DNA of 64,000 nucleotides from Pseudomonas mucidolens (GTDB lineage Bacteria > Pseudomonadota > Gammaproteobacteria > Pseudomonadales > Pseudomonadaceae): contig NZ_LT629802.1 of the NCBI RefSeq assembly GCF_900106045.1, forward strand, positions 5,022,001-5,086,000. The letters run 5' to 3'. Positions 47,819-49,993 of this stretch are shown one piece after another. The notes under the pieces are model-generated. The model did not search any database. It was not told where the DNA came from and saw only the letters and a list, made by a program, of their open reading frames with translations. Every line of letters starts with the position of its first letter. Position 1 is the first letter of the stretch. The position numbers and the translations under genes are program-made.

Positions 47819-47869
47819 GCCAGAACACCAAACCCAATGTGGGAGCAACTGTCTTCACCATGCCATTCG

Positions 47870-48787
47870 TCACCGCCACTCAGTGCCATCTCGCAACATG
47901 GCATTGAGCCTAATCAGCAGTACACGCATGCAGGCGATGAGCGCGACCTTCGCGCTCTTACCTCGCTCTCGAAGGCCTTCGTAGCGTGCCTTGAAGTCGG
48001 GCTGATGGCGGATTACAACCCAGCAGGACATGTACAGAGCCCGTCTGACACGGGCTCTGCCTCCATAGATATGTCGCTTCCCGCTGTGATTACCGCTGTC
48101 GTCGTTCAAGGGCGCGATACCTGCCAAGGCCGCAACCTCACGGCGATCAAGCTCACCTAGTTCGGGCAGATAAACCAGCAAACTCGCGGTGGCAACCGTA
48201 CCGATACCTTTAACAGAGATGAGCCGCTGGGCTTTTTCTGCGTCCAGTTCGTGCATGCTCTGATTGATGGCCTTATCAAGTTGCCTGATTTGCGTTTGCA
48301 GGAAGTGAATATGGCCTTTGATCAGCGCAATAACGGCTGGTAGCTGGGCTTGCTGAAGACGGCGCTTATTGTCGTCTCGTTGCTGAACGAAATGCTCGCG
48401 CTGCTGAACCAGCTCGCGGAGCGCTTCACGCTCAGGCGAAATAACCTTGCTGCTTGAGGCATTCAGCACTTCAGCAAAGTCTGCTAGAACGGCCGCATCA
48501 ATAGCGTCAGTCTTCGCATTCTTGCCCATCGCCACGGCAAAGGATCTGGCTCGGCGAGGATTGACCCTGAGCACCTTGAAGTTTGCGCCTTGCAGAGCCG
48601 CCATGGCATTACGCTCATAGCCCCCGGTGGCCTCCAGCAAAATCAGACTGACTTCAAACTGACTCAATCGTCGAATCAGCTCAAGAAATCCTTCTGAAGT
48701 GTTTGAAACATCGAAACCTTCGCTCTGTGGTTTAACCCAGACGACAAGGTTTGATTTTGAGATGTCGATACCGACCCAGGAAATCAT
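47870..48787 (-). CDS. IS110-family RNA-guided transposase/recombinase
   Basis: 305 aa. The N-terminal RuvC-like DEDD domain has Asp8 (VGIDIS), Glu52 (LLEATGGYE), Asp94 and Asp97 (KTDAIDAAV). A coiled-coil region at about 120-185 links it to the C-terminal Tnp domain (ISVKGIGTVATASLLVYLPE). That domain carries the conserved serine, probably Ser231 in APLNDDSG. All catalytic residues are present, so the element may be active. IS110 enzymes use a bridge RNA from the element end to pair target and donor; that RNA is predicted at 48821-48960. Confidence 0.95.
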   Translation of the reverse strand: MISWVGIDISKSNLVVWVKPQSEGFDVSNTSEGFLELIRRLSQFEVSLILLEATGGYERNAMAALQGANFKVLRVNPRRARSFAVAMGKNAKTDAIDAAVLADFAEVLNASSSKVISPEREALRELVQQREHFVQQRDDNKRRLQQAQLPAVIALIKGHIHFLQTQIRQLDKAINQSMHELDAEKAQRLISVKGIGTVATASLLVYLPELGELDRREVAALAGIAPLNDDSGNHSGKRHIYGGRARVRRALYMSCWVVIRHQPDFKARYEGLRERGKSAKVALIACMRVLLIRLNAMLRDGTEWR

Positions 48788-48820
48788 GGCAAAACCCTCT
48801 TACACTCAGATGTGAGAGTG

Positions 48821-48960
48821 CTCTGGCTTTGCCCACGCTTGTGATTTCGAGTGGCTGCTCGTCCAACTGTTCGGGCTTGTAGGCCAGAGTGGAAAGGTGG
48901 ATGGCAGCTCGGCTCCCACACGTGCTTTGAGCACCGCGGACTTGCAGCTTGCCATCCACC
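48821..48960 (-). ncRNA. Bridge RNA of the IS110-family element (core region)
   Basis: Read on the minus strand. The target-binding loop is closed by a 10-bp stem (48951-48960 with 48896-48905) and capped by the hairpin GUGCU-CAA-AGCAC. Its two sides are GCAAGUCCGC (48936-48945) and UGUGGGAGC (48912-48920), matching the two genomic flanks. The donor loop is closed by CUCUGGC/GCCAGAG (48883-48889 with 48821-48827) and GCCC/GGGC. Its sides ACAGUUG (48864-48870) and CACAAGC (48837-48843) match the element's own two ends. The true 5' and 3' ends are unknown. Confidence 0.8.
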
Positions 48961-49093
48961 CCTCTCACCCCAGAGTTTATTCCTAGATCAAGACACAAGC
49001 GGGCTTGCTCGCGAATGCGGTGTATCAGCCAATATATGTGTGACTGACACTCCTCATTCGCGAGCAAGCCCGCTCGCACATTGTTGATTGGGT

Positions 49094-49993
49094 CTACAGG
49101 GCGATACTGGCGATGCTCACGCCTAGCGTATGGCGTTCACCCGGTGCCAGCGCCACCACATCATCCAGCACATTCGCCGTCTCGATACACAGCATGCCCT
49201 GCCAACCGTCGTCGGCCATGTCGTCCAAGGCCTTGGCGCGTTCGGTCCATGGGTTCCAGATAACGGTCGACTTCGAGCCTTGGCTGGTGAGTTGCAGGCG
49301 CCGTTGCCAATGTTTGTCGACAATATTCAAGTGTGTGGGGGTGTCGAGGTAGATGCGATCGGTCTCGCCGGTAAAGTGCAAGAGGCCGGATTGTTGCTTG
49401 GTCTGCCAGCCGTCCGCCGTATCGATGTACTGCAATCCGTCCAACCCTTCGACCTGTACATTGCGCACATCGCTGACCGCGAAGTAAGTGTGCAGCGCCT
49501 GGCTGAGGGTTACGGTTTCGGTGCCGCGGTTGTGGCTGGTCAGTTGGATGTGCAGTTGATCGTCCAACAACAGGTTCAGGCTCAAGTCGACTTGATGCGG
49601 CCAGTCGGGAAAACCGCCTGCGGGCGCCGGCAATAGCAGGTTCACGCGTAACGCCTGGCCCTGGTTTTCAACGCCTGCCAGTTGCCACGTCGCGGTGCGC
49701 ACAAAGCCGTGGGCACCCGCTGGCTCGTCACTTTGACGCATCGCCTTCACGCTTTGCGGGTTACGCTCGAAAACCCCGAACCACGGCCAGCACACCGGAA
49801 CGCCCGTACGGATGCCTTTACCTTGCTTGAATACCGCCTCATCGTTGGGCCAGATCAGAGGCTGCTCGCCCTGACGCTGGTAACTGACGATGTGTGCACC
49901 TTGCTGGGCTACCAACAGTTCGGCGCCGTTATGGCGGATGCGCCAGCAATCCAGCTCATCCAGTTTCACGGTTTCAATGTGGGGCATCGACAT
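49094..49993 (-). CDS. D-hexose-6-phosphate mutarotase (aldose 1-epimerase family)
   Basis: A 299-aa galactose-mutarotase-like beta-sandwich. Family features include GKGIRTGVPVCWPWFGVF near residue 60, AHGFVRTATWQL with a catalytic-region His, SQALHTYFAVSD with the second His, and IWNPWTERAKALDDM with the likely catalytic Glu late in the protein. YeaD-type enzymes interconvert the anomers of glucose-6-phosphate. The ATG at 49993 or 49987 could be the start. It stands alone after the IS-interrupted REPIN. Confidence 0.88.
   Translation of the reverse strand: MSMPHIETVKLDELDCWRIRHNGAELLVAQQGAHIVSYQRQGEQPLIWPNDEAVFKQGKGIRTGVPVCWPWFGVFERNPQSVKAMRQSDEPAGAHGFVRTATWQLAGVENQGQALRVNLLLPAPAGGFPDWPHQVDLSLNLLLDDQLHIQLTSHNRGTETVTLSQALHTYFAVSDVRNVQVEGLDGLQYIDTADGWQTKQQSGLLHFTGETDRIYLDTPTHLNIVDKHWQRRLQLTSQGSKSTVIWNPWTERAKALDDMADDGWQGMLCIETANVLDDVVALAPGERHTLGVSIASIAL

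Follow-up and report, generated by a model that had tools for sequence, protein, structure and literature searches.

For insertion sequences of the IS110 group, published work already covers bridge RNAs, REP targets, and promoters formed at the junction, and loops have been predicted for Pseudomonas elements that target REPs (PMC11208160; PMC11187229; PMC1525189). Examples are ISPpu10 and ISPa11 (PMC11208160, Extended Data Fig. 10), and the structures of IS110 bridge RNAs are diverse (PMC11208160). A separate line of work, published before bridge RNAs were described, reported that in ISPpu9 the antisense RNA Asr9 is complementary to the 5' untranslated region of the transposase, that it raises transposase translation, that the activity of fusions increases up to 12-fold when asr9 is present, and that supplying additional Asr9 increases transposition three- to fourfold (PMC8450116).

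The element, its guides, and its target site

The window, a stretch of 64,000 nucleotides from Pseudomonas mucidolens, carries on its minus strand an element that very probably aims itself at Pseudomonas REP sequences by means of an IS621-type bridge RNA. Its principal features are as follows.

47846..48999, minus strand: complete IS110-family element of 1154 bp, delimited by the full-length identity of 13 genome copies and by the uninterrupted orthologous site
47870..48787, minus strand: transposase/recombinase of 305 aa (DEDD_Tnp_IS110 and Transposase_20), from domain matches and alignments
49000..49008, minus strand: chromosomal target, left half, GCAAGCCCG, which forms one arm of an inverted REP pair (48998-49074), read directly and from the empty-site comparison
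47838..47845, minus strand: right half of the target, CT core plus CCCACA, read directly and from the empty-site comparison
48936..48945, minus strand: left target guide (LTG), GCAAGUCCGC, read directly and from its alignment position
48912..48920, minus strand: right target guide (RTG), UGUGGGAGC, read directly and from its alignment position
48864..48870, minus strand: left donor guide, ACAGUUG, from its match to the element end
48837..48843, minus strand: right donor guide, CACAAGC, from its match to the element end, with which it co-changes (by eye) in the sX15 loci discussed below

The recombinase possesses both IS110 domains, DEDD (PF01548) and Transposase_20 (PF02371), scores 224.6 bits (cut-off, 140) against the IS110 RNA-guided transposase model NF033542, and aligns over residues 3-301 to chains of the solved IS621 (8wt6) and ISCro4 (9t56). 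Asp-8, Glu-52, Asp-94, Asp-97, and Ser-231 (D8, E52, D94, D97, S231), which we take from the IS110 literature to be the catalytic residues, are unchanged throughout a 10-sequence alignment. The non-coding ends, 212 nt upstream of the transposase and 24 nt downstream, are long on the left and short on the right, as in the IS110 group, of which this insertion sequence is probably an active member. It was absent from the plasmid collection searched by megablast. A weak match of the transposase (47870-48787) to a TIGR-Tas endonuclease model (24.9 bits; cut-off, 100) perhaps reflects shared ancestry.

An AG/CT dinucleotide stands on each side of the element, the core being CT, so that with 47846-48999 as the element proper the chromosomal target reads GCAAGCCCG-CT-CCCACA. 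The joined flanks of the window locus were searched in 298 genomes, and in all 15 of the best-matching relatives taken the orthologous locus holds an uninterrupted REP, in which TGTGGGAG continues straight into the remaining REP with no base lost at the junction. The empty site is the exact target, CGGGCTTGC, in nine of these relatives and differs by one base, GGGGCTTGC, in the other six. Because the REP is intact across the junction in every case, the insertion was exact and added one AG/CT. Sub-cut-off Rfam matches to mir-4803, mir-743, and mir-590 at 48993-49078 reflect the REP inverted pair and are a trap for false positives.

The LTG matches the flank GCAAGCCCGC (48999-49008) at nine of 10 positions, the remaining position forming a G-U pair, and the RTG matches 47838-47846 at nine of nine; the donor guides ACAGUUG and CACAAGC match the element ends at 47846-47852 and 48994-49000, respectively, at seven of seven positions each. 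All four matches, including the single C-to-U difference in the LTG, had been proposed in an earlier note made from the letters of this DNA, and all were reproduced. The note had assigned the target matches to the flanks, which holds for their positions, although the matched stretches also take in the shared core and the element end base. The guides occupy two internal loops, the target-complementary one first and the donor-complementary one second, and their strand sense is that of IS621, with left guides pairing to the bottom strand and right guides to the top one.

Short matches in a short, GC-rich stretch might be put down to chance, and single ones do recur in shuffled sequence. Among 5,000 dinucleotide shuffles of the left end, with the first 25 nt excluded, the LTG match arose in 79, the RTG match in 14, the ACAGUUG match in 102, and the CACAAGC match in 243, so that each 7-nt donor match taken alone is found in 2-5% of shuffles. 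On the other hand, not one of the 5,000 contained both flank matches or all four matches, and this result, the 13 copies at fitting sites, and the permutation tests given below refute a chance origin, which we regard as next to impossible.

The genome carries 13 copies of the transposase with 100% identical proteins, and the whole elements are identical end to end. The earlier note had held the element to be programmed for a Pseudomonas REP sequence and had named as grounds for refutation intact copies that share the loops but lie where the guides do not match; the 12 further copies were all found in REP sites in agreement with the guides, although at three of these sites one to three positions are mismatched. 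All 13 sites have G at -5, CCG at -3 to -1, CT, and then CCC. Position -4, opposite a guide U, is C in 11 copies (a G-U pair) and T in two (an A-U pair). With G-U pairs counted, 10 of the 13 sites fit both guides fully; of the imperfect ones, L008 has one left mismatch, L003 two right mismatches, and L011 two left and one right. Elsewhere in the genome, GCAAGYCCGCTCCCACA marks 64 unfilled perfect sites, against none for the backward pattern. The 13 identical copies and the 64 unfilled sites thus amount to a natural assay of the range of sites that one bridge RNA accepts.

Agreement of guides and flanks in related elements

Relatives were gathered from the genus (398 genomes, 122 with a match, up to five matches being scored per genome) and from a named genome collection (the best 80 of 496 confirmed), and they range from Pseudomonas, Luteimonas, and Arenimonas to Nitrospira and Chloroflexi bins. 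From the genus, 61 of 102 loci were entered, leaving out 10 identical copies of the window element and 31 distant or partial relatives with undefined ends; with the 80 from the collection, this gave a test set of 141 loci. Before counting, 59 of these were dropped (48 lacked the end motifs, 10 had a left flank shorter than 8 nt, and one contained an N), and the remaining 82 collapse to 28 distinct target loops. Guide positions were set by the alignment, independently of the flanks, with one base of play each way.

Guides covary with the target across these 28 distinct elements. The LTG agrees with its own flank at 6.29 of nine positions against 4.44 when flanks are permuted (z 9.3), and the RTG at 7.36 of eight against 5.41 (z 9.8), neither score being reached in 20,000 permutations, although the elements are related and the permutation counts are not independent trials. 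The signal is present separately in 20 near and eight distant elements, with 0 to 1 of 20,000 permutations without wobble and 0 to 9 with it. The earlier note had suggested aligning other copies with their flanks, and the complementarity that it expected holds here as well as, by eye, in a further set of IS110 elements with a different target (the sX15 loci). Because copies elsewhere bear out the guide matches, the window element can be added as a genuine new case to the RNA-guided mechanism discovered recently.

The anchored test replaced an unanchored scan of whole left ends, in which the right guide stood out (0 of 20,000 permutations with and without wobble), the left guide was significant without wobble (18 of 20,000 permutations), and with wobble the left guide gave no signal, 12,932 of 20,000 permutations reaching its score; the left-guide signal appears once the position is fixed. 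Left guides are weak in L134, L137, and L139, which agree at only five of nine positions even with wobble. Counted by position among the 28 elements, left-guide matches number 23, 19, 27, 25, and 27 in the positions adjoining the core, 19 at its C, and 8, 7, and 14 at the outer positions, whereas right-guide matches number 26-28 over seven positions and 15 at the eighth. Mismatches in the left guide include 24 transitions that keep a G-U/G-T pair against eight that break one, besides 51 transversions, a skew equalled in three of 2,000 permutations; this pattern favours the view that pairing, and not mere likeness, would be what is kept in the left guide. The long right target guide and the pair-keeping mismatches of this group are relevant to guide design. 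Donor guides offer less variation, the ends being nearly invariant in the group of the window element, with a single case, noted by eye, in which end and guide changed together (CTTGTG/CACAAG versus CTTATG/ATAAG).

REPs, being palindromic sequences, serve several insertion sequences as targets (PMC1525189), and it could be argued that the transposase recognizes the REP hairpin itself, the likeness of the guides being due to a common ancestry of REP and insertion sequence. Such an explanation is at odds with elements of 42-44% protein identity that lie at non-REP sites and match their own guides (L157, L163, and L164 from other phyla, and L182 from Xenorhabdus), as it is with the window-element copies at imperfect REPs, which retain the core-adjacent bases. 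We consider hairpin recognition exceedingly improbable and retain targeting by a bridge RNA as the preferred reading.

Joined ends, the predicted RNA, and the opposite strand

The following features concern the joined ends and the RNA predicted from them.

48974..48979, minus strand: -10 hexamer TAAACT of a promoter formed only by joined ends, from in-silico junctions
47846-47848 joined to 48997-48999, minus strand: -35 hexamer TTGCTT of the junction promoter, TTG from the right end and CTT from the left end, with a 17-nt spacer, from in-silico junctions
48788..48967, minus strand: predicted bridge RNA of ~180 nt, also the transposase 5' untranslated region, the 5' end placed from the -10 and the 3' end from the gene start
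48812..48968, minus strand: closing helix GUGAGAG (48962-48968)/CUCUCAC (48812-48818) enclosing both loops, seven pairs in the window and five in the consensus

Joining the ends in silico produced TTGCTT (or TTGGCT), 17 nt, and TAnnnT in 35 of 35 distinct junctions, a result at the level of sequence, taken over elements whose left end is CTTGTGTC and whose right end could be located; a second TAnnnT is present in two of the 35. In L034, L035, and L130, which may represent one event, the left end is 1 nt shorter and the right end 1 nt longer, so that the loss is offset by the gain and the 17-nt spacing is preserved. In the integrated state, TTG is kept in none of 31 elements with known flank, 21 of which have CCG instead. 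A scan of 48700-49100 for promoter and terminator consensus sequences returned none. The joined-end sequence, with up to one mismatch allowed, is absent from the window chromosome, as expected, and from all 26 genomes searched, and a looser joined-end pattern gave six matches in 398 genomes, none with a bridge RNA in the locus. Bridge-RNA matches and transposases are equal in number in the genome of the window (13 and 13), with no solo or extra copy; in another genome (G265), six partial bridge-RNA matches all lie at contig ends.

Five relatives (L026, L028, L029, L030, and L031) carry, some 30-45 nt inward of the right end, an approximate copy of end plus target in inverted orientation, GCTGTGGGAG[C/T]TT[G/T]GCTGTCT, perhaps left over from a former right end or representing a second, inversely placed donor-like site. 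In L019 (G228), the left end and the gene start are partly duplicated in tandem upstream of the transposase.

The RNA would extend from about 48967, assuming a start 6-8 nt past the -10, to the gene start. A consensus fold built from 24 left ends contains 43 pairs, of which 20 have both sides changed in at least one sequence. It consists of stem-loops for target and donor, both enclosed by a GAGAG/CUCUC helix that is nearly invariant and so has little covariation support. The two stem-loop units that the earlier note had seen on the minus strand upstream of the transposase are recovered. Its assignment to the IS621-type layout stands for the order of the loops, the strand logic, and the CT core, but not for the 5' architecture (PMC11208160), there being in the consensus of 24 left ends no IS621-like local 5' stem-loop before the target loop. 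We do not take such a stem-loop to be a defining feature of IS110 bridge RNAs in general, given how diverse their structures are (PMC11208160).

On the model of IS621, we propose that the element is excised as a circle whose joined ends would create the promoter TTGCTT-17 nt-TAAACT, from which ~180 nt of the left end would be transcribed. Once folded, this RNA would have one loop for the target (GCAAGUCCGC/UGUGGGAGC, which reads GCAAGYCCG-CT-CCCACA) and one for the donor (ACAGUUG/CACAAGC), the latter reading the joined ends of the element itself. In a complex with the DEDD/serine recombinase, the RNA would pair doubly, with the REP and with the joined ends, and target and donor would be brought together for strand exchange at the CT dinucleotide.

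The same DNA also carries features on its other strand.

48811..48974, plus strand: match to the entire Rfam model sX15 (RF02234), a candidate anti-bridge RNA, from the covariance model
48801..48806, plus strand: TACACT, candidate antisense -10, the sX15 match starting 5 nt past its last base, from the hexamer position

With 57.9 bits against a gathering cut-off of 55, sX15 is the sole Rfam family above its cut-off in the window, and within the left end the strand of the bridge RNA matched no Rfam family at E ≤ 1. With strict filters and seven candidates per genome, sX15 was found in two of 369 genomes of the class, the genome of the window and G409, and in none of 14 control genomes; it occurs in six of 17 genomes of the genus of G409. 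Of the eight sX15 loci above cut-off in that genus, seven have an IS110 transposase start 20-25 bp away on the opposite strand (some genes being interrupted), and the eighth, L115, lies at a contig end where the sequence stops 52 nt on, by eye inside the gene start. The bridge-RNA model R1 finds the sense strand of three of these loci (85-92 bits). Conversely, sX15 matches 10 of 11 Pseudomonas left ends at E ≤ 0.01 (three above cut-off) and eight of 15 loci from the named collection (three above cut-off), and all 18 of these matches are antisense. Rfam Xoo8 matches a Luteimonas copy (L134, 1013-1317) below its cut-off (59.6 bits; cut-off, 90), ending within the left end.

Because both strands fold alike, each model weakly matches the other strand: at L103, sX15 scores 35.8 bits sense versus 120.2 antisense, and R1 scores 18.8 bits on the plus strand of the window versus 223.8 on the minus strand, with three further mirror matches of ~29 bits, from G156 and G161. 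For the 35 pairs common to the two strand predictions, G-U and A-C counts (5 versus 6) do not separate the strands, and the excess apparent in either strand's own prediction was rejected as strand evidence, the prediction itself producing it. The consensus energy is -58.7 sense versus -44.2 antisense, and single-sequence energies are lower for sense in 16 of 24. All 19 loci inspected have a TAnnnT whose first base lies 9-12 nt ahead of the sX15 match, a spacing that is only suggestive of transcription of the sX15 strand, since the motif overlaps the ribosome-binding region and the loci are related. The opposite strand is probably transcribed as well.

In the elements of the G409 genus, left guides match the left flank and core over eight positions in seven of seven loci, one via wobble, and the right guide matches at seven of seven bases in four of the five loci with the right end read, both judged by eye. 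The insertion sites look like integron attC, and because the guides fit these attC-like flanks, sX15 corresponds to the complementary strand of a bridge RNA aimed elsewhere, a link that we did not find in the open-licence literature. In L111, L113, L114, L116, and L117, sX15-bearing IS110 elements of a gammaproteobacterial genus other than Pseudomonas, both right and left ends were seen to lie in attC-like sites with fitting guides. An orphan Rfam family of unknown role thereby gains a likely identity.

These findings bear on whether the left end could instead be a regulatory 5' untranslated region with an antisense RNA, on the Asr9 model of ISPpu9, the flank matches being captured REP sequence. 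In keeping with this, sX15 matches the opposite strand, both strands fold, with the near-equal counts on shared pairs given above, and the ISPpu9 antisense RNA raises transposase translation (PMC8450116). Regulation of this kind predicts neither guides that change with their flanks at unrelated targets nor a pair of guide segments of opposite sense around a hairpin, and the covariation contradicts it. We hold it to be very unlikely as a replacement for the bridge RNA; a 5' untranslated region or antisense role may exist in addition to it.

Taken with the bridge RNA reading, the sX15 loci together with the published Asr9 suggest a recurrent anti-bridge RNA. Under a tentative extension, which we regard as possible rather than likely, a conserved antisense transcript would span the whole guide (sX15 in Xanthomonadaceae, Asr9 in ISPpu9, and the plus strand of the window) and would trade guide supply against enzyme supply. 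The minus-strand transcript would, when folded, be the guide and, when opened by its antisense partner, the transposase message. Asr9 and sX15 would both be anti-bridge RNAs, and Ssr9 of ISPpu9, which is complementary to Asr9 and is preceded by a joined-end box, would act as a second bridge RNA, one able to move. The sX15 link makes it testable how IS110 elements balance guide RNA and transposase.

Comparison with known systems

The window element resembles IS621 in belonging to the IS110 group, in an RNA encoded in the left end upstream of the transposase with the target loop before the donor loop, in the strand sense of the guides (left to bottom, right to top), in the CT core, in the joined-ends promoter (the RNA of IS621 being about 177 nt), and in the REP target (PMC11208160). 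It differs in a transposase that is only distantly alike (95.7 bits), in a right target guide that reads 7-8 nt in its group, whereas that of IS621 reads 4 and those of some orthologues are longer, and in the GUGAGAG/CUCUCAC helix closing both loops where IS621 has a local 5' stem-loop (PMC11208160). Left-guide matches in its group are concentrated in the 5-6 nt adjoining the core. The Xanthomonadaceae sRNA family sX15 of Rfam matches the window element over its entire model but was modelled on the opposite strand, and its strongest loci belong to IS110 elements with an attC-like target. Likened by description, ISPpu10 and ISPa11 share the Pseudomonas REP targets (PMC1525189) and loops complementary to target and donor, and ISPpu9 shares the IS110/IS492 family, the REP target, the AG direct repeat, a long structured 5' untranslated region, and, in Asr9, an RNA antisense to that region, as is the sX15 match in the window (PMC8450116); unlike ISPpu9, the genome of the window has no Ssr9-like extra copy. 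The seekRNAs of IS1111 and IS110 elements follow the same principle and include a REP case (ISPa11) and attC cases, although in the IS1111 elements the RNA lies downstream of the transposase (PMC11187229). Among these systems, the window element is an additional member of the IS621-type bridge RNA kind, set apart by its long right target guide and its closing helix.
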